The notes under the pieces were generated by a model, which was not told where the DNA came from, searched no databases, and was given only the letters and a program-made list of their open reading frames with translations. The position numbers and the translations under genes are program-made. A stretch of DNA of 64,000 nt from Pseudisothecium myosuroides. Lineage: Eukaryota; Streptophyta; Bryopsida; Hypnales; Lembophyllaceae. Every line of letters begins with the position of its first letter. Positions within the stretch are counted from its first letter, which is position 1. Location of the stretch: assembly GCA_951799445.1 (NCBI GenBank), contig OX637290.1, positions 33,846,987-33,910,986 of the forward strand, written 5' to 3'. Shown here in pieces: positions 28,465 through 63,298 of this stretch.

Positions 28465-28494
28465 GAGACCCCTCTCGGTACCGAGAGGGGTCTC
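28465..28494. repeat. Perfect 30-bp palindrome in the transposase-like gene's intron
   Basis: The half-site GAGACCCCTCTCGGT is followed immediately by its exact reverse complement. The 21-nt core ACCCCTCTCGGT-R-CCGAGAGG differs by one base from the dyad in each unit of the 245-bp satellite 4.4 kb away. Degenerate relatives lie at 28,596-28,622 and 28,716-28,740. Confidence 0.95.
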
Positions 28495-28595
28495 AAGAGG
28501 GATTGACTCTTGCGCATTTCTCGTGTATTTGGTGGACAACTGTGGACTGCTGTTGCTGAGAATATAGAAGTGATGCATGCTATTTGTACCTTGAA

Positions 28596-36547: not shown

Positions 36548-37566
36548 ATGATGCTACGACGTCGGCATTAGCGCGAGATTGTGGATTGTCCCTCATATGG
36601 ATCTCTCCTTTGGCGAAGGTGGTGGCCCTCACTGGATACGATCGTCAAGGTGGATACGGAAAGGTGCGCAAGGTGTGCATTGAAGGGATGGACACAATCC
36701 CGCCACACATCGCTCTTGCTGGGAAGATGCCAAAGATCAAGAACAAGCATGATGCAAGGGTGGAACGGTCGATAGAGGCCTTGGCATGTCCCTTAAATCA
36801 TCCTGCTATAGTTTTTTTATTTGCCATTAACGAGAAAAGCATGGAATCGTACACGTTATGGTGGAACGGTGGCAACCTTGATGAGTTGAAGTCACTCGAT
36901 AAGAAGGTGGCAATAAGCGTTGAATGGAACGAAGTGAGGCGAGTGAGGGAACTTCCAGAGGAGAAACAAAAAGAAGTTAGCCTCTTTCGAAGGCACAAGG
37001 CGAAGTTGGCGTGGGCTCTCGTATTCGTGACTAATCTCATGCACAAGTCCTTGGTGCTGCACAATGACTTGTCTCCGAGGAATATAATGTTGCATTTTCC
37101 CGATTATTCGAACGAGATAATCCACATTGGGATTTGTGATTGGGGAATTGCTAGTCGTATTGACAAAAAAGCCCCATCACATTATGGATATCCAAATGAG
37201 GTACAGAAGCAGGAAGAACAATCTCGTCGTTGGTGGGTGGCTTCTGAGTTGTTTTATGAGTTTGGGCCTCCAAATTCGGATACGAGCATATCTATTATGC
37301 AATCAACGCGGAAATATACGCAGCAATCGGACTCATACTCTATTGGGAAGTTGACCGAATGGATGAGGATTGGTGAGATGAGTGAGTTCGACAGGGACCT
37401 ATTCAAGGATGCTGACAGGTCTAGGTTCTTTGCGTATAAGTTGGGTCAACTCGTGCACCCAGACCCGAAGATTAGATCGACATCTATGGAGTTGACGACA
37501 TCGCTGATGGCTCCACCATGGAACATGAAGCCCCCGGAAGCAGTTTTCTGTGACTCACCTTTGTAG

Positions 37567-41696: not shown

Positions 41697-42561
41697 TAGA
41701 GTTGTGAGGGGGACATTTTGTCTCTCCACTTCATTTTTGTGGCTTTCGTTCCGTGCACCGGATTGTTGGCGGCTTGACATTTGGGTATTGTAAATTGAAT
41801 ATATATTTGTAAATGTATGTTTTTTGTAAATGTGATATACCACCGGTTTAGGATTTTCACGCTCGAGTAGTACAAGTTTGGTATTAGAATATTAAACTTA
41901 GTACCTAGACTCGTTGTCCACGTACAAAGTGATCGTCATGGAGGATGAGGCCCAACCAAAGCCATTGACTCGGCAACAGAAGAAGGCACGTTGTGACATG
42001 CCACGGAAGAGGACTGGAAAAACTCACAAGAAGCGTGTGCCTATCCTTTTGCATCCACACATTAAGGCTTTCTTGGGTTGGAAGGAGGAACCTGAGCCTT
42101 GGAGTTATGAAACAGTTAAAAAATATGTGGATTGGTGCCACATCAACAAGCTGTTTCCGCTCTGGCGACACAAGCTGCAAGTGGAGTCTAACAAGGCAAA
42201 TCTTGGATATTGCAAAAATGAAGACTTCAAGAAGAGATGCCTTCAGGTATGGAGGGAGTTGTATCTAAAGGAGCAGCCGTATCGAAACGACAGTTTTCCT
42301 TTGTATCTTGTCCAAATGGTGTATACCGAATGTATACTTCTGAAGCGGGTGGATTGGACAAACATAAAGGAGTTGCCTATTGGAGACCATCCAGAGGACC
42401 CAACACTCTTGGTTCAAGATGAACGAGTTGATGTTGAGAAGAAGTTGACATTGGTTAAACCGGGGAAGTTGTGCATTCCCGACGAAGAGGTAGAGTGGTC
42501 AGCTGCTTCTAGCTCAGATGAGCGCACCCATGAATACGATGAGTATGAGTTTGATGAAGAC

Positions 42562-45500
42562 TGTCGTACGCGCAATCTAGGCATAAGTATCCTTAACACC
42601 AAAATGATGATAAGATAACACGGAATATTGTCCCAGGAGATTCTAGTATGTTTCAACAAGCTAAGGAGTTTCCGAGTCGTAATCCAAACAACAAAACCCC
42701 AAGCAACACCTCTTTCTTTTCCTATTCCTTACACAATGGTCTTCTGGATCCCAATCCGGATCTATCTCTTTCCGGTTTCCGGTTTGATCCGGATTCCGGG
42801 TCTCACTTCTCAACTTCAACTGGTTTTCTATTCCCCTGTTTTACCCTCAGGGTGTCCGCATTTGATCTTTAGAGGGGTAGGAACGTACCACTCTTAGACA
42901 TCTATTTCTCTGCACAAAACTTCACACAAAACAATCCTAACCGAGTTTTTATTGTAGAATAGAGGAAGTAATAATCCTCACAATTCCCCGGGTAGCTTGC
43001 CCGGAAAACAGGTCACTCAGAATTGCATCCTTCCACTTTTACTACAACGACAGATCAAGGCAGCCGGGACTAAAAGAGATTCGTGCATCTATCTACCAGA
43101 CTGATCCTATGGTTGGCAGACCTTCCGGTGAGTGGGGATTTTCCGCTAGCGGTCGCTTATCTCCGCTCGGAACCCTCCCTGGATTCCGGACTCGCATCCG
43201 CACCACTCCTTAGAACCGGATCACCGTTACGGCAATTTAAAGGTACCACGCACAAATCCTTACTCACAAGTCTAGTAAAGTTTCCTCACAAACTTACTCG
43301 CTCAAATCAGGTCCAACTAATTCTCAACCCGGATTCCCCCTCATCCGCCCTCTCTCACACTTTCACCATTCATAAACAACTCAAGAAAACGCACACATAG
43401 CCAGAAATCCAAATGTCCACTTAGTGGCTCAGATTAGAGAAAAGAGAATATGAACATAAACTAATGCACACAAAATGGGCAAGGCTGGAATGAAAGGGCA
43501 ACAAGCTGTCCTCCACTTAAAAAGCCCAAACAAAAAGCCAAAAAAAAAACACCTGAAAATCCAGGTGACCAATCAGTAACCAACCGTAATATCTGGAAAG
43601 TTCAAAGTCAACTACTCCTAAGAATCCGGAACCGGGCCCCACGCACGGAAAATCCGCTCCAGATTAAAAATCCTAATACTGCAAACATACTAACTACTTT
43701 CCCCGCTTTGATTTCTTCGCGCTGCTACTTGGCCCTGCAGGGGGTTTCCTGCTCCTTTTCGGTGGAGTGGACTTCGTTGCAGCTCGGGTCGGAATCTTCC
43801 GCTGGATCGGCGGCGGGTCGTCATCCGAAGCCGTCTCATCCCCGGAAGTGAATTCCCCCTTCTCAGACTCCTGGATCATCTCCACTCTGGTCTCTCTCTC
43901 GGGTGAATCGTCCAGCTGAATCAGTGTTGTATTCTTCTTGGGCGATGCCTTCTGCATGTGAGTAAGTCGACTGGATTGGTCTGAGCCGGGTTTGACAAGG
44001 CCTCCATCCGGTGGATTAAATTGCTCCGAACGGATGTTCCGGATGTCGGAATGGTACTCCCTGCTACTACCGGAATCGACTGGATACTCCTCGTCTGGCC
44101 GAACTTAGTGGTCTTCGTCTGGATCCGTGTCTGACCTGGAGTAGGTCTTGGGGATGGTGGTAGACTGATCCCTGCCCCCGACTTCTGGGGCGTCTTCAAC
44201 AAGTCGACGTTGGGCAGCTCCGAAAAGTGAGTGAAGTCCAAGGGCTTATTTGGGTCGAGGTGCCCCAACAGTTGCGCCATCTCCTTCAAAATTCCTTCCA
44301 TCCGGGCCTGGAAGTCCACCAAGATAGTTACCACCTTGGACCCGGATAAGTGGCCTATGCCACTCAGCTGATTGCTAAAGAGTCGGGATTTGACAACAGC
44401 TTCCGCGGACTGCTCCACCAACGCGATCAAATTGTGGACGAGTTGGAGAGCTTCCGTCTCCTTCTGCTGTGCAACTGCGGAATCTGTCTCTGCCCAGTTC
44501 ACCCGACCTAACAGGTCATCCCTTTCCTTCTCTAAGCTCTTGATCCGCTCGTCCTTCTCACGAATCAGATCCGGGCTCGATAGTTTCCGGATCTAATTTA
44601 TGATATCTTCCGGCTCCACCTTCAGCTCTGCAGCAATCCCCAGGATCATATCTGACATGCCGAAATGCATGTGCTTGGCCTCCTCCATCCACTGCGTTCC
44701 GGCGTCGAAGAAGTCCGACTGCATTTCCGATTCCGGGGGTTGACTCGGCTCTCCTTTTTCCGGGGTCGACTGTTCCACCCTCGAGTTCGGATTGGTCAAC
44801 TTCCTTCTCTTCTCCCGCTTGTCGACCAGGTCCTGCTGCTGCGGTTCTTCTTCCTCGTCGTCGTCTTCTTCTTCTTCCTCCTCCTCTCCCTCGATCGGAG
44901 TATCCGGTGGAATTTTGTGCGTGAGACCATACTTCACTATTTCCAATCCGGTGTTGTAAATCACCACCTCTTCACTAGTCAGCACCTCTTGATGGTGGTA
45001 CAGGTGAAACAGGTACGGACTGAGAAGACTCGGCTTCCCCTTCCTTACATGCGACACCAGTTTCTTCACTATACCGGCTAGGACTTTCCCCCAGTGGACT
45101 ACCTTATCTTCTAAAGCCCCAAAGATAGTGTTGGCCACCGTAACCGTAACTCGGGTGGGCTTTTCCGGATACATGATCAGAATCAAAAATTCCAACACCC
45201 ATTTCTGCCTAGCGTCCTTACAGTCACTCACGGGGTATCCGTCCTTAGTGGTAACCGGATTACGGAACTTTCCAATCCCGTACGTCTCTACCCGAGAACC
45301 TAATCCGGACCCGTTCTTCCCGAACCCGTATACGTCAGCCCATACATCTGCCGTCCATGCTCCGGGTTGGCCTCTCACAGTCAACTCAAACTGATTTGGG
45401 ACTCCCAAGATCAGCTGCTCCAGCATCTCCGTGTCCTTAACATTCCACGGTCGGTGGATCAAACCTACGCACCCCATCCGGGTCAGATCTGTCTCTAACT

Positions 45501-46060
45501 CCTTCCGGTGAGTTGGGTCGGTGGGAATAGCCGGTCTTACTATCCGAGCTGTGACAGAAGGTCGACGCGCTACCGGTTTGCTGGACTCCGCTATACCAAC
45601 ACCGACTACTAAATCCGGTGCAATCGGCACCAACCTCACCCGTCTCTCCCTGTCGCGATCTCTAACTCACCACTCTTTCTCTCAGCTAAGTGCGCAAGAC
45701 AATCAGCAAAGTGAAGAATGAGGAAGATTAGGTCTGGCGATGGTTTAAGTACTAGTCGAGCTGCCGACCGTTCCCCCTGGCGAACGGAAAAGAGGTCCAT
45801 TCCCGTAACGGTTCCCTAGCAGCGTAGGTCGGATACCTATTCCGTAGCTCGTTCCGATCCGACCTAACTCGGATTTAAGATCCGTTCCTGCTCTCGAAAG
45901 AACCCGGTTAAAGGATCTAGAATCTCGGATTCTAACTATCCGGAATCTATCTGTATCCGGATCTAATTTCTTACTTCTTATCAAAGTTTTGAAATTTTTG
46001 ACTAACTCCTACCCTATTTCTAAGCTACATCTCTCTCTAATGAGTTTCCATGCTCCCACA
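42562..46060 (-). mobile_element. Solo LTR, subfamily A (copy A2), 3,499 bp, inverted
   Basis: On the plus strand it begins TGTCGTACGCGC and ends GTACTCC...CCCACA-type sequence (TGCTCCCACA at 46051-46060). It is flanked by perfect AAGAC duplications (42557-42561 and 46061-46065). It is the reverse complement of A1 with only scattered differences. With A1 it forms an inverted pair of 3.5-kb arms about 6 kb apart. Confidence 0.9.
43694..45605 (-). pseudogene. LTR-borne protein gene, copy A2
   Basis: The same protein as copy A1. Its presumed ATG is ATA here (about 45,594), so any start would have to be elsewhere. A TAG at 44593-44595 replaces a CAG of A1, while the CGA lost in A1 is intact here. 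The same 1-nt deletion relative to subfamily B shifts the C-terminal part (43957-43694). The differing lesions show the two copies decayed independently after insertion. Confidence 0.7.
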
Positions 46061-47419
46061 AAGACCTAGAAGCACTCGCTCTCATGGATTTTTATAAGTC
46101 AGCCTCGAAGGCAACGGCTGACTAGAAGGGGAAGAAGAAGGTTGAAGAACCCGAAACACTGTTCCACAAACATGAACAATGCAGTGAGGATGTGGAGCCC
46201 AAGCGAGTGGACCACATATTCTTAGAGCACGGTGGCGGTCTGAGCAAGGACGATTCTTCAGACGATGAAGATATGTTGAGTGCTAAGATAGCAAGTGCAC
46301 GAGAAGCTTTGCTTGAAGCCACAATGGAATGGGAAGACTTGAAGAAAAATGAAGCTTCACCAGAATGTGACGAGGGTCTTGTGTCATCTTTGCGGACGGA
46401 GTCTGAGGCGGTCAAGAAAGCCATTGCTGAAAATGACAAGTACTTGGCTGATTTGAAGAAAAGTAAAGATAATTATTTCAAGAAGAGAGAGGAGGGCCGC
46501 GCTCACATGATGGATGATGTGGCAGTATATCAAAGGCAACTCCAACTCTTGGAACGCAAGTGTGGGCAGTTGCAACATCAAAGGAAAAGCATCGGCGTCC
46601 AAGTAGCTGAGAAAGAAAAAGAATTTTTCAATATTGCAGTCCAACAGTCAAAGGAGTTATGCCCTTCCATTATGGCTCGTGATTATGGTAGTACTCCCGA
46701 AGAATTAGCAATGCTTCGAAAGTTGGTGAAGCTCCACGAGGAGATGGTACACGCGAGTGATAAGGAGTTTCAGTTGCTGGAGTGCGAACTTCATTTTCTG
46801 TGGAAATGGTTGCAGTGGAGCAAAGATACTAAGGATGCAAGCCTTGTAGAACAAGAGAGGATTGGACCAGAGCCAAAGAGAAGCGATTTTGTGATCAATA
46901 CTAGAAGCATGTAGGAGCTCAGTACGAATTTGACGTTTTGGGCACCATTTTTTGGATGTAATGGACTTTGAATAGAAAAAGAAATTCCATTTTTTTTCCT
47001 TCCAAAGTCCCTAATTGTCATTCTTTTACCACGTGTATTTGGACTATTTTTTAAATCCTTGTTGAGCTTTTCTTTGGTTGGGAACAAGAAAATGAATGAT
47101 AATTTTATAATTATAGTTCAATTTTTATTTGTATAGAATAATACACGTTTTATATGTAGTTGTTGTTGGAGGCCTGCTTATTTCCTAAAATAACATCCAT
47201 TTTCTTTTACAATTACAGTGATGTATTTTCAATACAGGAGCAACAATATCAATCCATTTTCTTACCAATATTTTGGTTCTTTTTCCAAAATAAGAACCCT
47301 CTTCATTTTGGTAAGTTATGGGACTACATTGTTCCAGTGAAAAGAATACCATATTTAAGAAATCATGATAATTAATCCATTTTCTTGGTATTTTTGAGAA
47401 ATATTTCATTTCCAATTTT

Positions 47420-50400
47420 TTTCATGGAATTGTGAGAACTTAGGTTTTAAAATGAAAAGAGTAATCACATTGATATTCTTCCATTTTTATGTTTTCCATT
47501 ATGGGAAAGCTTCCAGTCTTTGCCTCTTTGGTAAGTTACGATTGAACCTTTTTTCTCTAGGAAGAAGAGCCCTTATTGTATTTCTTCTTTATATCTTAAA
47601 TTTTTTAAAATAAGAACAAGAATTTGTACCTATTTATTTATCAAAAATCTTGCTTAGAAGAAGAAGAAGTCCGAAATATTTTGAATTCTTCACTTCTACT
47701 TGCAGAACTCTAAGCTTCGGTAATTTACGAATGAAAATAATTTGGATGAAAAAAAGAGCACTCATTTTGTTTATGAGTATATGTGTATATATTTTGAAGC
47801 AAATAATATATTATTTCCAATTTTTTCTAGAAATTATGAGAACTTAGGTTTACAAGGAGAAGAGTAATCGTATTGCTACTCTTCCATTTTTATGTTTTTC
47901 ATAATGGGAAACCCTGCTTTTTTTGGTAAATTACAAATGAACCTATTTTTTAAAGGAAGAAGAGCATTTTTTATATTTCTTCTCTACATCTTAAATTTTT
48001 TTAAATAAAAACAAGAATTTGTATCTATTTATTTCCCAAAACTCTTGCTTACAAAAAAAAGAGGTATGATTTTTTTCCTTCATTGTATTTTGAATTCTTG
48101 ATTTCTACTCATAGAACTCAATGCTTGGGTGATTTATGAATTAACCCCTAGAGGACCAGCATGTAATTTTTGGTTGTAGAGGAATTTTGGGCAAGTACGT
48201 GTCACTAGAGAATTCCATATTTTAACCCCTAAAGGACCGGCATGCATTTTTTGGCCGTATAGAAATTTTAGGCAGGTCCGTGTGACTAGAGATTTCCATA
48301 TTTTAAGCTGAAATTTTAATAGAAGGTGGACGCGAGGAATATCTTTCATTTGCACTAAATTTCAGGACATTTGGAAATAGGAATCAAAAGTTATGGCCAA
48401 ATATGTTACATTTTTTTGTAACTGGGCAGTCCGGGCAGCAAGCAAAATTTGGCAAAATTTTGATTTTTTTTTTTAATATTTTTTTTCTTGTAGATTATAT
48501 TTTTGTCTATCTGGAAAGCTTTGATTCATTTCATTTGGATTTGTTATGAAAAAGTTATGGATATTCTTGTTTTTTGGGCAATTAGAGCATCTTCTTGAAA
48601 AAAATAACTTGTAGGATTCATTTCTAAATGCTATTTTTGCAATTAAAAAAAAAAAAAAATTCTCATGGTTTACTTTACTTGCTAGAACAATCTCACCATT
48701 GGGATCAGTGAATTTTAATTCCATCTAAAATATATTAATGTTTTAGATTTTCCTTCTATCTCGTACCTACTTCTACTTAATAAAATTTTTAGGAATGATA
48801 ATTAAGTTTTTTTGAATATTTTTTTTTTCCCTAGACTCTCAACTCAATTCTCCACTATAAAGATTTGAAGCACAAAACTTTGTAGTGCAAAAATTTTAAG
48901 TGAAAAATGTTTAAAGTCAAAAAATCTAGTCCCGCAATGTGCTGAAATACTTGTTTTTTCCACTTTAAATGCAGATATCTTGCAATCTGAGCGGTCAAAA
49001 ATTCTGAAATTTTTCCCACACATTCTCATACTAATTAGGTATAAGATCTTACGGTTAGATGTGAAAAAAAAACATTTTTCATTTTTTTTTACTCCTTGCT
49101 ATAGAAATGGCAGTTTTGATGGTTTTTTGGCAGAAAAAAAGCCTTGGGCCTTTAGGGGTTAAGCTGAAATTTTAATAGAAGGTGGGCGCAATAAAAATAT
49201 CTTTCATATGCACTAAATTTAAGCACATTTGGAAATAGGAGTGAAAAGTTCTAGCAAAATATGTTACTTTTTGTCGTAACTGGGCAGTCTGGGCAGGAAA
49301 AAACATTTGGCAGGAATTGGATTTTGTTTTTTTGTATTTTTCTTTTCATAGATAATATTTTTTTCTATCTGGAAAGCTTTGGTTAATTGGTTCATTTTAT
49401 TTGGATTTGTTATGAGAAAGTTAATAGGGACATTATTGTTTTTTGGGCAGTTAGAGCATCTTCTTGAAGAAAATAACTTGTAGGATTCATTTTTGAATGC
49501 TATTTTTGCAATTTTTCACAAAAAATAAATTCTCATGGTTTAGTTTACTTGCTAGAACAATGTCACCAGTGGGATTACTGTATTTTAATTCCATCTAATA
49601 TATATAAATATTTTAGATTTTCCTTATATCTTGTGTCGACTTCTACTTAATAATTTTTTTAGGAATGATAATTAAGTTTTTTTGAATATTCTTTTTTTCC
49701 CTAGACTCTCAAGTCTCAACACAATTTGCCACTATAATGATTTAAAGCTCAGAACTTTGTAGTCCAAAAATTTTAAGTTAAAAATGTTTAAAGTCTAAAA
49801 ATCTAGTCTTGCAATGTGCTGAAATACTCGTTTTTACCAATTTAAACACAAATATCTTGCAATCTGTGCGGTCCAGAATTCTGAAATTTTTTCCTCACAT
49901 TCTCATACTAGTTAGGGGTAAGATCCTACTATTCAATTTCCAAATTTTTTTTTTTTCAAATTTTTGGAATCCTTGCTATAGAAATGACAGTTTTAAGTGT
50001 TTTTTGGCAGAAAAAAGGCCTTCGGCCTTGAGGGGTTAAACTTATTAGGATAAAGAACCGAAAACCCATTTTGTTTATTAGTATACATGGATACATTTTG
50101 AAGCAAATAATATATTATTTGAAATTTTTTCCAGAAATTGTGAGAACTTAGGTTTACAAATGAGAAGAGTAATCGCGTTGATATTCTTCCAATTTTATGT
50201 TTTCCATTATGGGAAAGCCTCCATTCTTTGGTAAGTTACGGATGAACCTTTTTTCCAAAGGATGAAAAGCACTTATTATATTTCTTCTTTACATCTTAAG
50301 CTTTTTAAAATAAGAATCCAAATTTGTATATGTTTATTTAAATAAAAACTTGCATAAAAGAAGAAGAGGTCCAATATTTTCCCTTCATTGTATTTTTAAT

Positions 50401-50540
50401 TCTTGATTTCTACTTGTAGAACTCTATGCTTCGGTGATTTATAAATGAAAATTATTTGGATAAAATAAAGGGCATCGATTTTATTTATTAGTATATCTGA
50501 ATATATTTTGAAGTGAATAATAAATATTTTTTAATCTATT
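47420..50540. repeat. ~404-bp tandem repeat, three copies, interrupted
   Basis: A GAGAACTTAGGTTT... GAAGAGTAATC landmark recurs at 47,432, 47,835 and 50,141. The first spacing is 403 bp. The second is 2,306 bp, which becomes about 407 bp once the 48,141-50,039 insertion is removed. Each copy has the TTCCATTTTTATG and GGGAAA blocks. No coding function is visible. Confidence 0.65.
48141..50039. mobile_element. TTAA-flanked element cluster with internal tandem duplication
   Basis: The left end TTAACCCCTAGAGGACCAGC is duplicated 81 bp later (48,222). A ~860-bp body (from about 48,305) is repeated from 49,161, each copy ending with GGCCTT[TG]AGGGGTTAA-like sequence (49,162 and 50,039). Only one TTAA would remain at the empty site in the ~404-bp host repeat, consistent with TTAA-targeted insertion. 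There is no transposase frame. Confidence 0.55.
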
Positions 50541-51321
50541 TAAGAAGTTTTCAAAACTTTCCCTCGTAAAAATAATTGCACCACTATTCTTTTATATTCA
50601 TATTCCAAATTCTGGGATACCTTGAAACCGAGTAAACTCCATTTTTTTTGGGTAAGTAAGGAACGAGGATGATTTTAATAAGTTCAGTGTAGCCATTTTT
50701 TTCCTATATTATATTAGTAATTTTTGTTTAGGGAACCTAACCTTTTTTTTTCATTTAAGATATTGTAGCCTTGTAGGATCTTTCCTTTATAAGAAGAAGA
50801 GCATCAATTTCTTTCCCTTGAGCGGCTGCATTTTTGGTGGGTTCAATATCTTTTTATAGCCCAATAACAACTATATTTGCGTTAGAAGTTCATCATAGTT
50901 GAGTATATTTTTTATAACAATCTGAAATGGAAAAAACCCCTTATTTTTAGTTAACATGATGTAAGACCTTTTAAAAAAAATTCAACTTCAAAGTGAGAAG
51001 AGGAGACATTTTTGGGGGATATTTCTTTCAATATAATAGTAGAGTAATAAAACCCAAAATGAGAACAAACATTTATTCCTCGCGCAGAAAATTGACTCAC
51101 AATATTGCGAGGATAGTATATATTAAAAAATCCAAGCAATATATAATTGCTATGCATGAGAAAAATATAAAGCCGTAGAACTGGAATTGACGCAACAAAT
51201 AAAAAACAACACATATTACTCAGCTAGGCGACTATGGATATACTATGAGTCCATATGTATAAGCCTTACATTACATCTAATAACGAGAAGTAATGTTCAG
51301 GTAAATGATTGCAACAAATGT

Positions 51322-51486: not shown

Positions 51487-54400
51487 TGTGGGAGTACGTA
51501 TCATCCGGAAAGTCCCAATTAACAATTTAGTGGAGGTAAAAAAAGCAGAACTTTTTCAATTTTTGCATTTAAATACAAAGTTAGGACTTAGATATTAGAA
51601 ATAGAAATTAGTTTCTACGTAGAAAAGATAAAACTCTAAATAGGTTACGCAGTCTGCCGAAAACCGTAGCCGGAAAGCCGGAAAGCCGGAAAGTTCCGGA
51701 TCGTAGGGACCTACTGCCTAGGTTCCAGCTAGGGAACTTACGGGAACTTTTTCGGCAGTGGGAACTTAGGGTTCCGACAGGTACTTAAACCCCACCGCCA
51801 GCCTCATTCAGTCTCTTTTTACCCGTGCTCTTCCACGGTGCGTTAGAAGAGAGAAAGAGTGGTGAGTTAGGACGTGTTAGGGAGAGAAAGGGAAGAAGGT
51901 GCCGATTGCACCGGATTGTCTTAGCAGTCGGTGAGATGGCGGAAGCGAGTCGATCCCGGAGGTCGGTAGTGACAGCCCGGGGCGTACGTCTGGTTATCCC
52001 ATCGGATCCGGAGCGCCTTAAGGAGTTAGAGAAAGACCTAGAAATCATGGGGTGTTTAGGATTGGTAAAACGTCCATGGAACGTCCGGAGTGAAGAGATG
52101 ATTGACGAGCTGGTTTCCGGAGTGGGTAATCAATTCGATTTGACGATTAGGGGTCGATCTAGGGCCTGGACTCCGGAATTGTGGGCGAAGGCGTACTTTA
52201 CGCCAACCAGGGGTTCCGGAATGGCGTCCCGGACGGACACTTATGCCAAGGAGGTATTCCGGAGTCATGCGGATTCCAAGGAAGGGAACGCCGTGAGTGA
52301 CTGTAAGAGTCCCCGAGATGGGCAGTTGTTAGCATTCCTCATCCCTATTTTGTATCCGGAAAAGCCCACCCGGATTACAATGACCGTGGCAAACACTATT
52401 TTCGGAGCGCTGGGAGATAGAGAGAATCCGACTCCCAGGCCGGTCAGTTGGGGAGTGATCATTCACTCCGTAGTGGAAAAGTTAGCGGTTAATATAGCGA
52501 ACAAGAAATCAAGTCCGATTAGCCCCTATCTTTTCCATCTGTATCACTCTGAGGATGCACTGGCCGGACCGGAAATGATAGTGTACCGGAAGGGCGAGAA
52601 TCTGTTGAAGTACGGACTTCCCGCGGAAGATGAACCGGATGAGCTCGAGCCGGAAGAAGAAGAACCGGAACCGGAGCATGCATCACCTAACGTTGGAGGG
52701 ACGCACCGTAAATCGACGGATCAGGGTGCACGGGGGAAACAAGAAACCGAGGAGGTAGAAAAGCCCCGAGAACCACTTCCGGAAATAGATCAGCTAGAGG
52801 CCACCATCAAATGGCTGTTAGCTACCCGGGCACAGAATGAGCGGATGTCGGCGCTGATCCGGAAGATGTGCGAGAAATTGGGTGTGAAGGAAGAAACCCA
52901 ACTTCTGGTGGCGTTGACGGAAAGGCCGGATCCGGAAGCGGTGAAGCAGCTGGAGGACCGGATTCTGACCTTGGAGCAAGAACGGGACCGGTTTCGAGAG
53001 CAAGCTGCGTGGTTGGATAAAGAGCGGATGGCCGCTGAAGCAAAGGAGGGAGAAGCCCTTGATCTGGTCCGGAATGTCCGGGGCCTGTTTGACAATCCGG
53101 CGGATATTCTGGCCAGAGCTACACTCTGGAATTCTCAGATGGTGAAGGATGGGCACGTGGTCGGATCGAAGGTGGTGAACATCCTCGTGGATTTCGAAGT
53201 CCGGATCGAAGGAATGCTCAAGGAAGTCCGGCAACTGTTGGGAAACCTGGATCCGCTTGAGGGGTTAGACCAAGGTCTTTTTGACCTGGGTCAGGATCTC
53301 CAAGAAGGAGGGGCACAAAACCAGCCTTCTCCGGCAAAGAGCAAAAACGATTGCCGGAACGTCGCAAGCCAAAACAGCATCGGCCTAGAAGAGGAGGTCG
53401 CTAGTGAAGCAGTTTGCGGTCACGACTCCGGTGAAGGACGTTGTTCTAGGCGTGCCAGCCGGAAGAACTGCGTCGGTGGCAAATCTCTTCTCCGACAGAC
53501 CGGTTGCTTCTACTTTCCGGGAACCAGCTTTACCCGGAACGGTGTTGAATCCAGCTCGGACGGATCCGGTGAGTTTTACTCACATGCTCCAGCCCCTTCT
53601 CTAGACACCGCCGCCATCCCAGCTCATCGATCTTATTGTTCCGAAACCAAGGGGACGGCGGCTACTGAGCGAGACGGACCCGGAATCGGAAGAGGAGGAG
53701 ACGACTCAATCGGAGGAAGAAGAGTTGCAGCCTCCCCGGACCAGGTCAAAGACGAAGAACACCCCTCCCAAGAAGACAGGTGGATCGCCATCTCAGGGTG
53801 GCACTTCTGTGAAGAAGGCTAAGAGGAATAGGTGACTATCTAGGGTAGCCGTAATAATAGTTAGGATTCTTACCAGGATGGTAGTTCCGGAACCGGCTTT
53901 TCCGAATGTGGGGCCAGTAGTTCCGGACTTTTAGGAGTTTCCCGGTTTCCCGGTTTTCCCGGAACGGTCTTCAGGGCCGTTGCTTTTTTTGCTTTTTATT
54001 TGGCCGTTGGCCGATTTTTCTGGTGGCCGTTTGGGCTGCCTTTTTGTGGGTTTTTAAGGGCAAGCCGGCTTGTTGGCCTGTCATTCCTTTTCCTTGTTCA
54101 TTTAATCTGAAGCATTCAGGAAAGCACTCGTTGGATTATTCTCTTGCGTATCGCGTCTATAGTCACTTGTGTGGATGTGTAAGTGAGAGTGTGCAAGGGG
54201 AGGAGTCCGGATTCTTGGACTGCCGGATTAGGCTGAGTGTGTTTTACGGATGAGTTTTTTTGACTTGCGCAGTGAAAAAGTGGCGCCTTTAAATCGCTGG
54301 TACGGCAATCCGGTGGAGACCAAGGAGTGGTCCGGAAGCTAGTCCGGAATTCGCAGGGGCGGTTCCGTGCGGAGATAGGCAACCGCCAGAGGAATATTTC

Positions 54401-54960
54401 CACCCATCCGGAAGGCTAGTCAACCTCATGAGCGGTCGAGAGCTAGGAAGTCATTCCCTTAGTTCCGGAAGTCCAATATCCGTCGTTGTAGTAAGGAGGA
54501 CCTAACGCTACCTTGTGTGACCAGCTTTCCGGATAGGCCATCCGGGATGTTGTGAGGATGCCACCCTGTTACTCAACTAGATCTATTCTTGGGTTGTGTT
54601 TTGTTTTATGTTGATAGAGTTTATGTCAGATACGGAGTGGTGCAGTTCCCTACCCCTCGGAAAGAGCAAGTGAGGAACCCTCTAAGGGTAAAACAGAGGT
54701 ATCGAAAACCAACTTGTTAGAAAGACGGAACCGGAAGATTGGATAGAGCCGGATCCGGAAGAGAATCCGGAAAGGAAGTAGTTCCGGAAAAGAGTTCGTG
54801 TGTTGAAAGGACCCCTCTCGAGGTGGTCAAAGTCCGGAAACTTAGAGGTCTAGAAACACTAATTTTGAAGCAACGTCTGGAATCTCCTGGGACGATAACT
54901 TGTGTCATTTTAGCACGTTTTGTTGTTAAAGATACTTACGCCTAGATTACGCGTACGACA
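51487..54960 (+). mobile_element. 5' LTR, subfamily B (copy B1), 3,474 bp
   Basis: It begins TGTGGGAGTACG and ends ACGCGTACGACA, directly followed by a primer-binding site (54,965), so the unit is a genuine LTR. It is nearly identical to B2 (59,823-63,298, inverted). It has a GTACTTAAACC box at 51,781 and the LTR-borne gene. No matching AGGGT duplication or same-orientation 3' LTR was found, so the element is truncated or rearranged. Confidence 0.9.
51936..53835 (+). pseudogene. LTR-borne protein gene, copy B1 (frameshifted)
   Basis: It starts MAEASRSRRSVV and follows copy B2 closely until about 53,345. There an extra A in a short A-run shifts the frame, so the frame in use ends in unrelated residues at 53,822. 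The original frame resumes at 53,404-53,604 but meets a TAG (53602-53604) where B2 has CAG. The C-terminal KKAKRN block is still recognisable up to 53,835. Confidence 0.7.
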
Positions 54961-54964
54961 CTTT

Positions 54965-54985
54965 TGGCGCCGCTGCCGGGGATTC
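54965..54985 (+). other. Retrotransposon primer-binding site (tRNA-Asp type)
   Basis: TGGCGCCGCTGCCGGGGATT begins 4 nt after the LTR end. It is complementary, with one mismatch, to the 3' end of plant tRNA-Asp as I remember it, the primer type used by Athila-like Ty3/gypsy elements. It fixes the LTR/internal boundary. Confidence 0.8.
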
Positions 54986-55126
54986 TGATAGATTGTTCTG
55001 AAATTAGAGAATTTATAAAGAGACCTTTAGTCGAAAAGAACAGGAGTTGATATACGGGTTAGCAGTGTGGATCCGTATCCCCAAATTGATGAAGTAGATC
55101 TTGAAAGAGTACCTACCTCGTACTTC

Positions 55127-57817
55127 ATGAGTAGTCCTTTGAGAGGAATTCCAGCCGGAAGACGTTCCGGAAGATTAGAAGAGGCTACTGCTAGAAGATC
55201 GGTAGTACACGGAATCCCTAGTTTTGGTAGAGGTTCCGGATCTATTTCAGCGTCAAAGTCAGAAGAAGATTTGGTACATGTTACTAGGCGAAATCTTATT
55301 GAAACCCCAAGTCCCACCAATCCGGAACCAGTTGCGAATCCGGATGATATAGAACCGGAACCAGATAGAGAACCCACGCCGGTAGATTCAAAAGAGGAGA
55401 TATCCTCTGACAAAGCAGAACCGATGGTGACATCCACACGCCTAAAATATAGTAAATTTACGGGCGATGGTACTACGGATGTGGATGACTGGATGGGAGA
55501 GTTTGAGGCCACCGCCGTAGCCAACCAAGAGGATCCAGCCTCTAGACAGTGTGTCTTCCAAGGATTACTGAAAGGGGAAGCGTTGAAGTGGTATCAGGAT
55601 GTTCCGGAAGTTATCCGGAATAACTGGGAGGACCTTACGGATGCGTTTCTTCAGACATTCCGGGAAGTCGGAGGGGAGGCTAGAGCTCTAGGAAGGTTGA
55701 GTAAAATGTTAATGCGATCCACGGAGTCAGTCAGGAAGTATGGCCAGAGAGTGAAAGCGTTGATGAAGAAACTGACAACGGATGTGTCCCCTAGCATACA
55801 AGTAGAGTGGTATGTGGCAGGATTTCCGGAAGAAATGGGATTCCAAATCCGGCAGGCTCGACCTGCCACGTTACAAGAAGCTATGGAGACAGCCCAGAAT
55901 TACGAAAACTCCGTCCAGTCACTAAGAAGATCCATCAAGAAGAGCGAAAGAAGAGAGAACCGGAGCAAGAAGCATCAGAAGAAGGAGAGAAGAAGATGGA
56001 AGTATTCCGATTTGGAATCTCCAAGTTCCGGAACCGGAACAGAAGCGTCAACCAGCAACACGGAGAGTTCCGGAGCTGAACAAGAAACGTCAAGCAGACG
56101 GTCTTCCAGAGGTCGGGATGAGAAGACGGACCGCGGTAAGAGAGTGATCAAAGTCAAGATGGAAGAAGAGGACTCCAAGAAATTCATGAAGAACCTCCAG
56201 GAGATGTTGGACGCCATCAAAGTCAACATCGCGGAAAACCGGAAGCCGAGACGGATCGTACCAACAACACGGACAAATGTCTGGTGTCCAAGGTGCGGAC
56301 GACCCGGCCATTTTGCAAGGGAATGTCCTCAAGGACCCCAGAAGCAGATCCACTATGTGGATGAGGAGGGAGTTTACTACACCCTACCGGAGGAAGAATA
56401 CGAGGAAGAAGTCAATCCGGTATTCCAAGTCCAAACGGGTTACGGAAGAGGCAGGGCACCTCAGCAACTGATCCGGACCAACGTGTTTCCACGACCCGGA
56501 ACAGGGACATCTAGTTCAGATAACTTCCCACCTTCCAGGTTTCCTCCCGAAACTTGTTTCATTTGTGGAAGTCCTGAGCATTACGCCAACACTTGTCCTC
56601 ACAAAGGGCTTGGTCAAGGAGCACCCCTTGTTCTACCTTGTCAAAATTGTGGAGAGTATGGGCACGGACTTCGTGATTGCCCTAGTCCGCAGTAGGCTAG
56701 AACCATTTACAAACAAGTAGAAGTTCCACCTCGGGATCAAACCGGACTCAATTACGGTTCTAAGACCAGAATTGAGAATCCGGATAAATGACAACCAAGG
56801 GTGGAACTTCCGGAGAAACAAGTAGAAGTAGTTCATAGAGTAGAAACCCGGAGTTCCACCAAGAACCGGGATGAAAGACGTAGGAAGAGAGAGAAGAAAC
56901 GGAAAGAAAAATCCGAATTAGATACCCTGCACGAGGTACCGGATTCGAGCGATTCTGATCGCTCAGTAGTTCAACCAGTTCTACATCCCGTAGTAGATTT
57001 AGAAAAAGGGGTGGCTCGCCGCCCCCTTTCTATCGATATTAGTGATCAAATCAGGATGAGTCTAAATGATTCCGTAGTAATCCCGGAAACTATTCCGAGA
57101 AAGGTCACATTTGATGAGATTCCGGTTGTGATCAATCCGGAATTAAAGGTGGACGAGTATGATATCCTACAAGATATCAAAGATCAGAAGGCCAATGTCA
57201 CCATTGGGCAGCTTCTGCACGACAACGCCAATTACCAGAAGATGATCCGGGAAGCCTGGACCAAGAAACGGAGAAGAAGACTGAAGTTACCCTCGGTTGC
57301 TGTCAACTTTTCCCAAATGGAGGATTACGGAGCACCTGAATTAAAAGTTGAAGTGGGAGGATGCATGATACCTGCAGTACCGGTCGACGGAGGATCCGGA
57401 GTCAACTTGATGTTAGAAGAAACGGCATTTGACCTTGGATATACGTCCTTCCAAGCCACCGACCAAGTACTCCGGATGGCGGATCAATCTCGTGTGCATC
57501 CGGTAGGAAGGCTATCACAAGTTCCTACCCGGATAGGTACAGTTACCTACCTCCTAAACTATGTGATTATCCAAGTTAGCCAGGGAAGACCCTTCCCCAT
57601 GTTGCTTGGAAGACCATGGCTGTATGCAGCCAGAGTCTTAGCGGATTGGGGAGCCAAGGAATTTGTGATTGGGAAACCAGCAATCCGGATTCCCTGGAAA
57701 CGCGTGGAGCATCTTGGAGAAACCAGCAAGTCAGATGGATACACGACGGATTGGTCGGATCCGGAAGATTCAGATTCAGTCCCCAACTGTGGGCGCAAGA
57801 TTACCCACCCTTGGTAA
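55127..57817 (+). pseudogene. Ty3/gypsy-like gag and protease region
   Basis: The gag frame (first ATG 55127, stop TAG 56693-56695) has a retrotransposon capsid domain around GLLKGEALKWYQDVP and three CCHC zinc knuckles: CPRCGRPGHFAREC (about 56,285), CFICGSPEHYANTC (about 56,555) and CQNCGEYGHGLRDC (about 56,640). The same frame continues past TAG and a TGA (56788-56790) into a retropepsin-like region with VDGGSGVNLM (about 57,383) and ends at 57,817. The codons flanking the stops would fit CAG and CGA ancestors, or gag-protease could use readthrough. No reverse transcriptase, RNase H or integrase follows, so this copy cannot be autonomous. Confidence 0.8.
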
Positions 57818-59822
57818 TAAAGCGAACACCAACCAGGTTCTATGCCTTTATCCACAATTTTTAATATATGGGGGTGATGTGAGCGCGGTCCACTGTGCCT
57901 TCCAAGCAATGGATCTTTTTTGCTAACGTTTCCTAAGTTTCGTGGATGGCAGCGAATAATTAGTAATGCATGTAGTAACTCACAAGCTAACTGCGATGTT
58001 CAGAGTGATGGTGAAATTCTAACTCCCTAACTATCTATCCTATGTCGAGGGTAGACTGGGTAGTTGGCGTCATTTCTAATGTCCCTAACTACGTAAAAAG
58101 GGGAACCCCTATGTTCCTTCCATGAACCTCTAAGACTATCGTGGATTTTTAAGACTCTACCTAGAAGCTCTACTTCTAAAGACTAATTCTAAAGTCCAAC
58201 TCTTACTCTAATTTTCAACCTCTAAATGAAACTCTAGACTTTTACTCTTTTAACTTGGCTTTAAGTATTAACTATGGACTTCTATTCTATGTTTTGACTT
58301 TTGACTCTAGGTTTTTACTCCTAATTTAACTTTGAAATTTATCCTCGGAATTTAACTCTAGGTTTAACTTTTAACTCTAAGTTTTTACTCCTCTATTCTA
58401 TCCTAAATTTACCCCTTCTAAATTTAACTCTACGTTTTTTACTTTTAACTCTAAATTTTTACTACTTCCTACTAACTCTAAAATTTTACTTCTACCTCTA
58501 AGTTCTAACTTCTACTTTTAGCTTTTGACTCTAACCTTTTACTCCCCAATTGACTCTAAAATTTAACCGTTAAATTTAATCTAAACTCTTGACTTTTGAT
58601 TTTTGACTTCTACTTCCAAATTTAATCCTAAATCCTGGATTAATTCTAAATGTAATTCTAAATGTAATTCTAAATGTACCCCCCTAAATTTAATTCCAAC
58701 TTTTAACTCTAGGGTTTTGACTTCTAATTTGAACCCTATTCCTAACTCAACAATCTACTTCCTAAGTGGATTCTACTTTTGACTTCTATTTCCTACTCTA
58801 CTTTTTACTTCCTAAAGTTAACTCCAACTTTCGACTTTTGAATTTTAACTTCCCTAATTAAAATCTTAATCTAATTCTAGGTTTTTAACTGTTAATTGAT
58901 CTTTAATTTTTATCCTAAATTCTCTTTCTAATTTAATCCCAATTTCCGTTCATTGTTCCTTGTGGATCAAATTCAATTAAAATTCCTCTGTCCTACCCCC
59001 TATCGCTTAACTTAGCCTAACGCGGTCAGTTTACGGTCAAATCTTAATTATAAGCTGTTTTTGGAAACCTCTATTCCTAATCTATCAACTTTTGAATCTA
59101 AACTTCTAATCTACACTAATCTCGGATGCTAATCACGCTCTAAGGGCTGATTAGGAAAATAAATGCTAATTAGGGAGAAACATCAAAGATTAAATCAAAA
59201 ACTCACCTCTTCACTACCAGTGTCGGAAATGACTTCGTCCACGTCCACGTGTACATCCTCACGCTCCATGGTAGTCTTTGGCTTTGTTTTGAATTTTCTC
59301 CAAGCTCACTGCTTATTGAGAAATATTACAATTTTTGATGATCTAAACTCCCTCTTTCCCTTCCTCCTTTTCTTTTCTTTCTTCCCCTCTCTTCTATACT
59401 AGCACTATTCCACCTAAGTTTTTATGAGTCTTACACTATGGTTTCAAACTACGAGAAGGGTTTAAATGTTCTTCCTACCCTCTTACACAATTTGCCTTTG
59501 TGTCATCTTAATCCTCCTCCCAACGGTCACCACAAATTCTCAAGATTTCCCTCCCTAAGTCTACCTAGGCTTAGACCTAGGTCACTATTTATCGTCTCTC
59601 TCCTTTTTGTTCTCTACTTCATCTCCTTCTTTCTAATCTCCCTCCATTGTTTAGGTGTATATTTGGTTGGTTAGAATGGAGGTTTCAAGTGTGCGTGCAG
59701 GTGTGACGTGGAGGGTACAATTATGTGTGTAGGAGTGATGTGAGGTGTTGACTCTCTTCCTTCCCTTCCCTTTGTTCTTTAGTCACAACTTGGAAGTTTT
59801 GGAATTTTTGGCCTTGGATCCC
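57818..59822. repeat. Low-complexity CTCTAA/TTTTACT-rich tract
   Basis: From about 58,090 to 58,960 short degenerate units such as AACTCTAAATTTTTACT repeat irregularly. Outside this the DNA is unremarkable, and no pol coding was seen in any frame. It may be the element's own non-coding interior or unrelated flanking DNA. Confidence 0.55.
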
Positions 59823-62800
59823 TGTCGTACGCGTAATCTAGGTGTAAGTATCTTTAACCACAAAAACGTGCTAAGATGACACAAGTTATCGTCCCAAGAG
59901 ATTCCAGACGTTGCTTCAAAATTAGTTTCTCGAGACCTCTAAGTTTCCGGACTTTGACCACCTTGAGAGGGGTCCTTTCAACACACAAACACTTTTCCGG
60001 AACTACTTCCTTTCCGGATTCTCTTCCGGATCCGGCCCTATCCAATATTCCGGTTCCGTCTTTCTAACAAGTTGGTTTTCGATACCTCTGTTTTACCCTC
60101 AGAGGGTTCCTCACTTGCTCTTTCCGAGGGGTAGGGAACTGCACCACTCCGTATCTGACATAAACTCTAATAACATAAAACAAAACACAACCCAAGAATA
60201 AATCTAGTTGAGTAAACAGGGTGGCCTCCTCACAACATTCCGGATGGCCTATCCGGAAAGCTGGTCACACAGGGTAGCGTTAGGTCCTCCTTACTACAAC
60301 GACGGATACCGGACTTCCGGAACTAAGGGAATGACTTCCTAGCTTTTGACCGCTCATGAGGTTGACTAGCCTTCCGGACGGGTGGAAATATTCCTCTGGC
60401 GGTTGCCTATCTCCGCACGGAACCGCCCCTGCGAATTCTGGACTAGCTTCCGGACCACTCCTTGGTCTCCACCGGATTACCGTACCAGCGTTTTAAAGGC
60501 GCCACTTTCTCACTGCGCAAGTCTAAAAACTCATCTGCAAGACACACTTAGCCTAATCCGGTAGTCCACGAATCCGGACTCCTCCCCCTTGCACACTCTC
60601 ACTTACACATCCACACAAGTGACTATAGACGCGATACGCAAGAGAATAATCCAACGAGTGCTTTCCTGAATGCTTTAGATTAAATGAACAAGGAAAAAGG
60701 AATGACAGGCCAACAAACCGGCCTGTCCTTAAAAACCCACAAAAAAGCAGCCCAAACGGCCACCAGAAAACCGGCCAACGGCCAACTAAAAAGCAAAAAG
60801 GCAACGGCCCTGAAGACCGTTCCGGGAAAACTGCAAAACCATTTAACTCCTAAAAGTCCGGAACTACTGGACCTACATCCGGAAAATCCGGTTCCGGAAC
60901 TACCATCCTGGTAAGAATCCTAACTACAATTACTGCTACCCTAGATAGTCATTTATTCCTCTTAGCCTTCTTTACAGACGTGCCACCCTGAGCTGGCGAT
61001 CCACCTGTCTTCTGGGGTGGGGTGTTCTTCGTCTTCGACCTGGTCCGGGGAGGCTGCAACTCTTCCTCCTCCGATTGAGTCGTCTCCCCCTCTTCCGATT
61101 CCGGGTCCGTCTCGCTCAGTAGCCGTCGTCCCCTTGGTTTCGGAATAGTAAGATCGATGAGCTGGGACGGTGGCGGTGTCTGGAGAAAGGGCTGGAGCAT
61201 GTGGGTGAAACTCACCGGATCCGTCCGGGCTGGATTCAACACCGTTCCGGGTAAAGGTGGTTCCCGGAAAGTAGAACCCACCGGTCTGTCGGGGAACAGA
61301 TTTGCTACGGACGCAGTTCTTCCGACTGGGACGCCTAAGACAACATCTTTTACTGGAGTGGAGGCCGCAAACTGCTTCACCAGCGACCTCCTCTTCTGTG
61401 CCGATGCTGTTCCGGCTTGCGACGTTCCGGCGATTGTCTTGCTCTTTGCCGGAGAAGGCTGGTTATGTGCCCTTCCTTCTTGGAGATCCTGACCTAGGTC
61501 AAAAAGGCCTTGGTCTAACCCCTCAAGCGGATCCAAGCTTCCCAACAGTTGCCGGACTTCCTTGAGCATTCCCTCAATCCGGACTTCAAAATCCACAAGG
61601 ATGCTCACCACCTTCGATCCCGCCACGTGACCATCCTTCACCATGTGATTATTCCAGAGTGTAGCTCTGGCAAGAATATCCGTCGGAGTGTCAAACAGAC
61701 TTCTGACATTCCGGACCAGATCGAGGGCTTCTCCCTCTTTTGTTTCAGCGGCCATCCTCTCTTTCTCCGACCACGCAGCTTGTTCTTGAAACCGGTCCCG
61801 TTCTTGCTCCAAGGTCAGAATCCGGTCCTCCAGCTGCTTCACCGCTTCCGGATCTGGCCTTTCCGCCAACGCCACCAGGATTTGGGTTTCTTCCTTCACA
61901 CCCAATTTCTCGCACATTTGCCGGATCAGCGCCGACATCCGCTCATTCTGTGCCCGGGTAGCTAACAGCCATTTGATGGTGGCCTCTAGCTGATCTGTTT
62001 CCGAAAGTGGTTCTCGGGGCTTCTCTTCCTCCTCGGCTTCTTGCTTACCCCGCGCATCCCGATCAGTCGATTTCCGGCGCGTCCCTCCAACGTTTGGTGA
62101 TGCCTGCTCCGGTTCTGGTTCCTCTTCTTCCGGCTCGAGCTCATCCGGTTCATCTTCGGCGGGAAGTCCATACCTCAACAAATTCTCGCCCTTCCGGTAT
62201 ATGGTCATTTCCGGTCCGGCCAGTGCATCCTCGGAGTGATACAGATGAAAAAGATAGGGGCTAATCGGACTTGACTTCTTGTTCGCGATATTGACCGCTA
62301 ACTTTTCCACTACGGAGTGTATGATCACTCCCCAGCTGACCGGCCTGGGAGCCGGATTCTCTCTATCTCCCAGCGCTCCGAAAATGGTGTTTGCCACGGT
62401 CATTGTAATCCGGGTGGGCTTTTCCGGATACAAGATAGGGATGAGGAATGCTAACAACTGCCCATCCCGTGGACTCTTACAATCACTCGCGGTGTTTCCT
62501 TCCTTGGAATCCGCATGACTCCGGAATACCTCCACGGCGTAAGTATCCGTCCGGGACGCTATTCCGGAACCCCTGCTCGGCGTAAAGTATGCCTTCGCCC
62601 ACAACTCCGGAGTCCAGGCCCTAGATCGACCCCTAATCGTCAAATCGAACTGATTACCTACTCCGGAAACCAGCTCGTCAATCATCTCTTCACTCCGGAC
62701 GTTCCATGGACGTTTTACCAATCCTAAGCACCCCATGATTTCTAGGTCCTCTTCTAACTCCTTCAGGCGCTCCGAATCCGATGGGACAACTGGACGTACG

Positions 62801-63298
62801 CCCCGGGCTGTCACTACCGACCTCCGGGATCGACTCGCTTCCGCCATCTCACCGACTGCTAGGACAATCCGGTGCAATCGGCACCTTCTTCCCTTTCTCT
62901 TCCTAACATGCCCTAACTCACCACTCTTTCTCTCTTCTAACGCACCGTGGAAGAGCACGGGTAAAAGAGACTGAATGAAGCTGGCGGTGGGGTTTAAGTA
63001 CCTGTCGGAACCCTAAGTTCCCGCCGCCAAAAACGTTCCCGTAAGTTCCCTAGCCGGAACCTAGGCGGTAGGTCCCTACGATCCGGAACTTTCTAGAACT
63101 TTTCCGGCTTTCCGGCTACGGTTTCCGGCAGGCTGCGTAACCTATTTAGAGTTTTATCCTTTCCACCTAGAAACTAATTTCTATTTCTAATATCTAAGTC
63201 CTAACTTGGTATTTAAATGCAAAAATTGAAAAAGTTCTGCTATTTTTACCTCCACTAAATTGTTAATTGAAACTTTTTGGATGATACGTACTCCCACA
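59823..63298 (-). mobile_element. Solo LTR, subfamily B (copy B2), 3,476 bp, inverted
   Basis: On the plus strand it begins TGTCGTACGCGT and ends TACTCCCACA. Perfect ATCCC duplications flank it (59818-59822 and 63299-63303), so it is an independent insertion and not B1's partner. It is opposite in orientation to B1 and nearly identical to it, with arms 4.9 kb apart around gag-protease. Confidence 0.92.
60949..62847 (-). CDS. LTR-borne protein of unknown function, open copy (632 aa)
   Basis: The only uninterrupted copy of the gene found in all four LTRs. The start at 62,847 (MAEASRSRRSVV) is chosen because subfamily A copy A1 starts at the same place; the frame is open upstream to 62,958. Residues about 25-245 form a conserved domain with KRPWNV, NQFDLTIRG, YPEKPTRITMTVANTIFGAL and SPYLFHLYHSEDAL blocks. 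It vaguely recalls the putative plant transposon protein domain linked to Athila-type elements; this is low-confidence inference. An acidic EPEEEEPEPE run, a coiled coil (about 330-400) and a basic, nuclear-type C-terminus ending KKAKRNK follow. A GTACTTAAAC box lies about 145 bp upstream, so the LTR may drive it. Confidence 0.8.
   Translation of the reverse strand: MAEASRSRRSVVTARGVRPVVPSDSERLKELEEDLEIMGCLGLVKRPWNVRSEEMIDELVSGVGNQFDLTIRGRSRAWTPELWAKAYFTPSRGSGIASRTDTYAVEVFRSHADSKEGNTASDCKSPRDGQLLAFLIPILYPEKPTRITMTVANTIFGALGDRENPAPRPVSWGVIIHSVVEKLAVNIANKKSSPISPYLFHLYHSEDALAGPEMTIYRKGENLLRYGLPAEDEPDELEPEEEEPEPEQASPNVGGTRRKSTDRDARGKQEAEEEEKPREPLSETDQLEATIKWLLATRAQNERMSALIRQMCEKLGVKEETQILVALAERPDPEAVKQLEDRILTLEQERDRFQEQAAWSEKERMAAETKEGEALDLVRNVRSLFDTPTDILARATLWNNHMVKDGHVAGSKVVSILVDFEVRIEGMLKEVRQLLGSLDPLEGLDQGLFDLGQDLQEGRAHNQPSPAKSKTIAGTSQAGTASAQKRRSLVKQFAASTPVKDVVLGVPVGRTASVANLFPDRPVGSTFREPPLPGTVLNPARTDPVSFTHMLQPFLQTPPPSQLIDLTIPKPRGRRLLSETDPESEEGETTQSEEEELQPPRTRSKTKNTPPQKTGGSPAQGGTSVKKAKRNK

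Follow-up and report, generated by a model that had tools for sequence, protein, structure and literature searches.

A conserved protein-coding gene inside the long terminal repeats of a recently active moss retrotransposon lineage

Introduction

Can the long terminal repeat (LTR) of a plant retrotransposon hold a whole protein-coding gene? The question is raised by 64,000 nucleotides of DNA from the moss Pseudisothecium myosuroides (assembly GCA_951799445.1, 388 Mb; contig OX637290.1, here C4:33846987-33910986), which are called the window below. An earlier note on the window described four LTR units of a Ty3/gypsy-like family, two each of types A and B, that all contain the same ~630-codon gene, and suggested that the encoded protein is under selection. 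The analysis presented here shows that families A, B and C all have the gene within their LTRs, solo as well as paired, and that in the examined copies, which were chosen through the gene, it is marked by strong purifying selection. We conclude that it is a real, conserved LTR-encoded gene of a recently active plant retrotransposon lineage.

Results

Four LTR units in the window share one gene

The four LTR units were located by DNA repeats, without use of the gene. They and the remnant that follows B1 are arranged as follows (TSD, target-site duplication; ORF, open reading frame).

33047-36547, + strand: A1, solo LTR with a perfect 5-bp TSD, ATGAT
42562-46060, - strand: A2, solo LTR with a perfect 5-bp TSD, AAGAC
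51487-54960, + strand: B1, 5' LTR of a 3'-truncated element, with ends TGTGGGAG...CGACA
54964..54981, + strand: primer binding site TTGGCGCCGCTGCCGGGG
55067..56695, + strand: gag of the B1 element, with Retrotrans_gag and three CCHC stretches, 93% identical to the gag of element interior L007 (see below)
56801..57817, + strand: 5' part of pol in the B1 element, which ends after about pol residue 329
59823-63298, - strand: B2, solo LTR with a perfect 5-bp TSD, ATCCC

The perfect duplications around A1, A2 and B2, together with the primer site and gag behind B1, bear out the LTR status that the earlier note had assigned to these units. Directly 3' of the B1 LTR stands CTTTTGGCGCCGCTGCCGGGG, followed by gag; a repeat search found no 3' LTR of this element in the window. 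The primer site is probably tRNA-Asp-like, in which it would resemble that of Athila. At 32420-33082 and 41914-42618, further ORFs extend into the ends of the A1 and A2 LTRs, respectively; each of the A insertions may therefore disrupt another ORF.

The two A LTRs align at 97.6% identity and the two B LTRs at 93.1%. Between A and B only patches of LTR DNA align, the longest being 64.6% identical over 602 positions and 68.0% over 447. The N-terminal half of the protein can still be aligned across this wide divergence, as had been claimed, and 209 codons of the N-terminal domain (N-domain) were compared between A2 and B2. A noncoding stretch near the 3' end of the LTR (B1 54280-54711, A2 42821-43249) is kept as well as the gene, at 68% between A and B. 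It is possibly a leader RNA element; an Rfam scan of the window gave zero matches.

The gene itself is found in the four LTRs in different states.

60949..62847, - strand: gene in B2, intact, with 632 codons counted from the ATG; the automatic ORF call begins at a GTG at 62958
51936..53822, + strand: gene in B1 from the ATG at LTR position 450, 628 codons open, with a frameshifted tail
33469-33957, 33970-35232 and 35028-35414, + strand: ORFs of the broken gene in A1, the first two with 162 and 420 codons, the third a tail
44593-45639 and 43921-44502, - strand: ORFs of the broken gene in A2, of 348 and 193 codons

The frame of B1 departs after about residue 508 of its 669-residue, GTG-started reading, and the gene is intact in one of the four LTRs of the window, B2. 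The statement that all four hold the same ~630-codon gene is thus correct as homology and incorrect as a count of intact genes. The 632-codon ORF of B2 compares with a maximum of 257 codons in 500 first-order Markov simulations of the B2 LTR; for family C, described below, the corresponding figures are 589 and 304 codons. Both ORFs exceed the simulated maxima and are therefore not due to chance.

Family B is recently active and carries the gene in solo and paired LTRs

Copies of the B gene were collected by a protein search of the window's own genome, in which the best 66 of 2595 candidate places were scored. Among these 66 copies, 58 have no stop within the gene, and 24 form 12 same-strand pairs that lie 9458-9467 bp apart. 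These pairs are the two LTRs of ~12.9-kb elements. Twenty of the 66 LTRs were fetched, and all 20 are complete TGTGGGAG...CGACA units: 10 are solo LTRs with a perfect 5-bp TSD, 5 are followed by the primer site and 5 are preceded by AATGGGGTAA. With B1 and B2 included, all 632 codons are open in 17 of 22 copies, and 9 of the 11 solo LTRs (B2 among them) hold the full ORF. A full element can carry two copies of the gene and a solo LTR can keep one, as seen in these solo LTRs, in the 12 B pairs and in the pair of family C.

Both LTRs were fetched for three elements, whose outer flanks match exactly in one case (ATGCA) and in 4 of 5 bases in the other two. The pair L017/L018 shows 0 differences in 3481 bp; L023/L024 differ at 5 positions and L025/L026 at 6. 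Because the L017/L018 LTRs are identical, family B is recently active. The LTRs were also ranked by the noncoding 978 bp at their 3' end, and the best 40 of 760 candidate places, which were scored, all reach at least 99%.

A third family suggests that the gene is older than the split of A, B and C

Family C was found through its relation to the gene, gag and pol of family B, in 60 kb between B copies within a transposon-rich cluster on another contig (C5). Its pol is 68% and its gag 58% identical to those of B. The two C LTRs are 3488 bp long, 100% identical to each other, bounded by TGTCGCA...TGCGACA and flanked by the TSD ACACT, and the element has a primer site and a purine tract. Its gag contains stops. 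Both C LTRs contain a homologue of the gene, intact at 589 codons; over 210 codons, its N-domain shares 42% identity with that of B. At E 0.01, little of the C LTR DNA can be aligned: 51 and 78 bp with B2, and 26 bp with A2. The simplest reading of these comparisons is that the LTR gene would be older than the split of A, B and C and would have stayed in the LTR since.

The gene has also been considered a passenger inserted in only a few LTRs. This is disfavored by its presence in four of four LTRs that were found without using it (A1, A2, B1 and B2) and in both LTRs of C; the 20 additional B LTRs had been selected by way of the gene itself.

The protein-coding sequence is marked by purifying selection in the examined copies

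Nonsynonymous (N) and synonymous (S) changes were counted against a neutral expectation of 2.5-3.1 N per S, with the first 235 codons taken as the N-domain. Among the 22 B copies, changes shared between copies number 15 N/41 S (ratio of nonsynonymous to synonymous rates, omega, 0.12-0.15) and private changes 64 N/116 S (omega 0.18-0.22). Within the N-domain the shared changes are 2 N/17 S. When B1 is left out, the counts are 13 N/32 S for shared and 22 N/57 S for private changes, the latter with p 9e-16 against the neutral split.

Between A2 and B2, the 209 N-domain codons give pN 0.31 and pS 0.73, with an omega of ~0.14 at saturated synonymous sites, and identity at the three codon positions is 0.63/0.75/0.40. 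Synonymous sites are likewise saturated between B and C. The dN/dS comparison proposed in the earlier note thus yields values of ~0.12-0.22 within B and ~0.14 between A and B, not near 1, and upholds its claim of selection on the protein.

The encoded protein belongs to a family without a Pfam description

The protein consists of a conserved N-domain, an acidic linker and a coiled coil, with a basic tail in B and several relatives. Its conserved core reads ...FLIPILYPEKPTRVTVTVGNTIFGAL...WG...ATPI.PYLFHLY... Relatives were sought with the B2 protein and with a family profile, and in both searches the best 8000 candidates by shared words were scored. The B2 protein search revealed at least 25 relatives, with E values from 2e-94 to 4e-30. 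The profile, whose alignment holds 22 of these first 25, revealed at least 59, of which 36 were new.

The profile searches for known domains that the earlier note had recommended gave nothing of weight in Pfam and weak, largely coiled-coil matches in the PDB. The B2 protein matches no Pfam family at E<=10, the LTR protein with 23 relatives gives no Pfam match of weight, and none of the 59 profile-found relatives contains a Pfam domain. Neither the plant mobile domain nor Transposase_28 is among the 25 listed of the 41 Pfam families matched by 24 members. In the PDB, the best profile match (E 0.0024) and its neighbors cover profile positions 218-460, outside the N-domain, and are mostly coiled coils. 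The protein therefore represents a family that has no Pfam description.

Two further leads were rejected. Ribosomal L28, which appeared in the PDB sequence search with a best E of 0.042, is too weak a match. Collections of viral and of bacterial and archaeal contigs returned 38 and 21 pattern matches, respectively, among which no relative was confirmed. A kinship with Transposase_32 (PF20167) or the plant mobile domain, which the "LYPEKP...WG..." stretch might suggest, was weighed but forms no part of our reading. One relative (P0002) bears an automatic source name, an rRNA-processing protein, which was disregarded.

The element is a non-chromodomain Ty3/gypsy retrotransposon

Three B element interiors were fetched (L006, L007 and L008). 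All three have a pol that is open over 1377 codons, and in L007 and L008 gag is open over 574 codons from a GTG. In both of the latter, gag and pol are open and the genes of the flanking LTRs on both sides are without a stop. The pol of L007 contains reverse transcriptase, RNase H and integrase domains in that order by Pfam, and its best PDB match is the Ty3 Gag-Pol (E 6.7e-92). The gag carries a capsid-type domain and zinc knuckles. These genes in the order gag, pol, the TG...CA LTRs, the TSD, the primer site and the purine-rich tract before the 3' LTR identify a Ty3/gypsy element.

The one 1377-codon pol scanned against Pfam at E 0.01, that of L007, contains neither the chromodomain of chromoviruses nor the second RNase H of the Tat/Ogre/Retand group. 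The Athila ORF-1 domain has no Pfam match in the LTR protein, gag or pol. A genome search for the plant mobile domain (PF10536) found zero, and is uninformative since 0 of 14 controls were detected. We read the lineage as a recently active non-chromodomain Ty3/gypsy group in a moss, with some copies in which every gene is open. The small contigs of the assembly include one of 104,589 bp, with group II introns and an ORF read by eye as cox1, and one of 115,000 bp, with ORFs read by eye as rps7 and ndhB and, by Rfam, the plastid ndhA-ndhB intron; this content is that of a land plant.

At L007:1866-1892, gag and pol lie in one frame, separated by a single TGA that is followed by CAA; family C likewise has a TGA at its gag-pol junction. 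The B-type elements may use stop read-through between gag and pol.

Leader motifs suggest how the gene and gag could be expressed

Upstream of the gene, the LTRs share short motifs, which are listed for B1.

51781..51791, + strand: GTACTTAAACC, promoter-like motif common to A and B, ~150 bp 5' of the ATG, function predicted
51861..51869, + strand: GGTGAGTTA, splice-donor-like motif in the leader, role predicted
51898..51912, + strand: possible 15-nt hairpin GGTGC-CGATT-GCACC, identical in the A1, A2, B2 and L018 leaders, pairing judged by eye

Neither the TACTTAAACC box ~150 bp 5' of the ATG nor the GGTGAGTTAG motif in the leader differs between A and B. The leaders of all three families contain GTGAGTTAG, that of C read by eye; in the C leader, again by eye, GTACTTAGCC takes the place of the full box, ~215 bp before the ATG. 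The B gag frame is open for 32 codons ahead of its first ATG, which would fit a spliced start. No divergent copy supports coding in this stretch, and C has an ATG in the upstream gag frame.

From these motifs we propose the following model. Transcription would start near the TACTTAAACC box, giving a short U3 and placing the gene in R-U5. The LTR gene would then be the 5'-most ORF of the genomic RNA, with gag behind it, and would be translated from unspliced RNA. With this order, gag would be expressed most simply by splicing from the donor-like motif: GTGAGTTAG could let a spliced RNA skip the LTR gene, from which gag-(stop)-pol would be translated. Solo LTRs would persist as one-gene transcription units.

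Other features of the window

The remaining DNA of the window contains repeats and ORFs outside the LTR units.

7782-24000: 245-bp satellite in tandem array, one family with 66 reported copies, the listed ones mostly 94-98% alike
26108-30346: successive sense ORFs (714, 253 and 240 codons), judged by eye to resemble a Mutator-type transposase that has a SWIM-like cysteine stretch
36586-37566: 326-codon ORF immediately following A1, judged by eye to resemble a protein kinase domain
47400-50560: local direct repeats with 77-84% similarity, in AT-rich DNA
58100-59760: long pyrimidine-rich low-complexity stretch between the B1 remnant and B2

Discussion

The reading that we favor, and hold to be somewhat better than an even bet, is that the lineage carries an accessory gene wholly within the LTR of an active Ty3/gypsy element, encoding a regulator or RNA-handling factor that acts on the element. 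The protein is proposed to be an oligomeric, probably nuclear accessory factor that would act on the element's own LTR or RNA, in expression, export or relief of silencing, and not a structural or enzymatic protein of replication.

Several observations weigh against this reading. Both A copies in the window are broken, and the element with identical LTRs, whose interior is L006, has a gag that is open over only 455 codons from an ATG and is therefore interrupted near its start. Past the N-domain, the identity between B and C falls to 22%, near the limit of alignment, and the C protein ends without the basic tail of B. The choice of the fetched B LTRs through the gene required its presence and favored intact copies; of the best 40 LTRs ranked by noncoding sequence, 16 coincide with known gene copies and 24 lie outside the best-66 list. 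In the first stretches (<=6 kb each) of 20 small contigs, the LTR gene, gag and pol were found in none. The promoter and the donor are known as motifs and their roles are predicted. The private changes of B2 are 7 N/2 S. Finally, third codon positions in B vary at 151 of 632 sites, compared with 168 of 1580 noncoding LTR sites; mutation may account for some of the synonymous excess, or else the noncoding LTR may be constrained as well.

The same position in the leader would also suit a structural or replication factor, such as a second Gag-like protein or an RNA-binding particle protein. On the inferred start site it would be encoded by the first ORF of the genomic RNA, it has a coiled coil and charged regions, and its N-domain is strongly conserved. 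However, capsid-type and zinc-knuckle domains are already supplied by the element's own gag, Pfam returns nothing for the B2 protein at E<=10, and sequence change in the family is faster outside the N-domain. We regard such a role as unlikely.

Selection could instead come from the host, if solo-LTR copies had been domesticated. The full 632 codons kept in 9 of 11 solo B LTRs would agree with this, as would the 12 N/43 S private changes counted over the 10 fetched solo LTRs, to which L027 alone contributes 5/21. However, these are young copies that entered the sample by protein score, and selection before insertion yields the same pattern. The 7 N/2 S of B2 fits drift after insertion and does not speak for selection on solo copies. 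Domestication is accordingly very improbable.

We give about as little credence to a host gene that was captured once into the LTR and rides along without a role for the element. In its favor, an LTR is an unusual place for a gene, Pfam detected no known retrotransposon domain in the protein, and the sample of B LTRs was drawn through the gene. Against this, all four LTRs of the window have the gene, as do the two of family C, which differs by a third in pol, and the gene is open and biased toward synonymous change in a recently active family.

That the ORF is untranslated and arose from constraint on the DNA or RNA itself (for a structured leader or a codon-like composition) can be practically dismissed: noncoding LTR sequence is conserved too (68% over 447 bp between A and B), but the ORF is far longer than in simulation, divergence is greatest at third codon positions, with the first and second retained, and protein similarity reaches C, where the DNA mostly fails to align.

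With the accessory gene as the favored reading, a tentative extension can be considered, which we think has a modest chance of being right. A solo LTR would be a self-contained mobile one-gene unit that keeps expressing a trans-acting protein, and the dose of the factor would rise with the number of dead elements. The result would be a copy-number-dependent control, either self-limitation or collective anti-silencing, that outlasts the replication genes.

With a conserved gene wholly within the LTR, a solo LTR becomes more than a stray promoter: it is a possible gene as well. DNA annotated as "LTR", of which 760 candidate B places were recorded and the best 40 scored, may encode a protein that repeat masking hides. 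If the ORF lies in the leader, the element must solve the translation of gag behind a 632-codon ORF. Because the family is recently active, these ideas are testable in living material.

Comparison with known systems

A protein gene within the LTR, present in two copies per provirus, is known from the sag gene of mouse mammary tumor virus (MMTV), a mammalian retrovirus in which U3 encodes a membrane protein that is read by T cells. The parallel with this superantigen drawn in the earlier note holds for location, a complete protein gene inside the LTR, and for nothing beyond it. In lentiviruses (nef) and foamy viruses (tas/bel1), the coding region of an accessory regulator enters the LTR. These genes only overlap U3 and are expressed from mRNAs of the 3' end, whereas the gene described here lies in the LTR in full, together with a promoter-like box of its own.

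For plants, our searches of an open-access library found no LTR-located gene by title or abstract; one review on MMTV matched. The excerpted text of a plant survey (PMC6317226) and of the Retand paper (PMC11963269) does not mention an LTR-located ORF. Additional ORFs of plant LTR retrotransposons are placed in the internal region, mostly between pol and the 3' LTR, in the part consulted of PMC7264820. They include the env-like ORF of Athila, the plant mobile domain of Ogre and the antisense ORFs with Transposase_28 of Retand and Grande, all of which are described as having no known function (PMC7264820, PMC6317226, PMC11963269, as excerpted). The gene described here resembles them in being a family-wide gene beyond gag and pol. 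It differs from them in lying wholly inside the LTR and on the sense strand, and the domains named were not seen in Pfam scans.

Among moss elements, Phygy of Physcomitrella is likewise a non-chromodomain Ty3/gypsy retrotransposon. As described in the excerpt of PMC6317226, it is rather short, its polyprotein fills nearly the whole interior, and it prefers NCGN for insertion, whereas by that description the elements studied here are larger, at ~12.9 kb, and have variable TSDs. The nearest in layout, compared by description only, are Retrosat2, RIRE3 and RIRE8 of rice, which have LTRs of ~3 kb or more and an ORF0 upstream of gag-pol that is divergent between families and, according to the excerpted source, not found outside grasses (PMC3485330). 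They share with the moss elements the long LTRs and the extra ORF before gag-pol. The ORF0 is placed in that text only "upstream" of gag-pol, whereas the moss gene lies inside the LTR itself.

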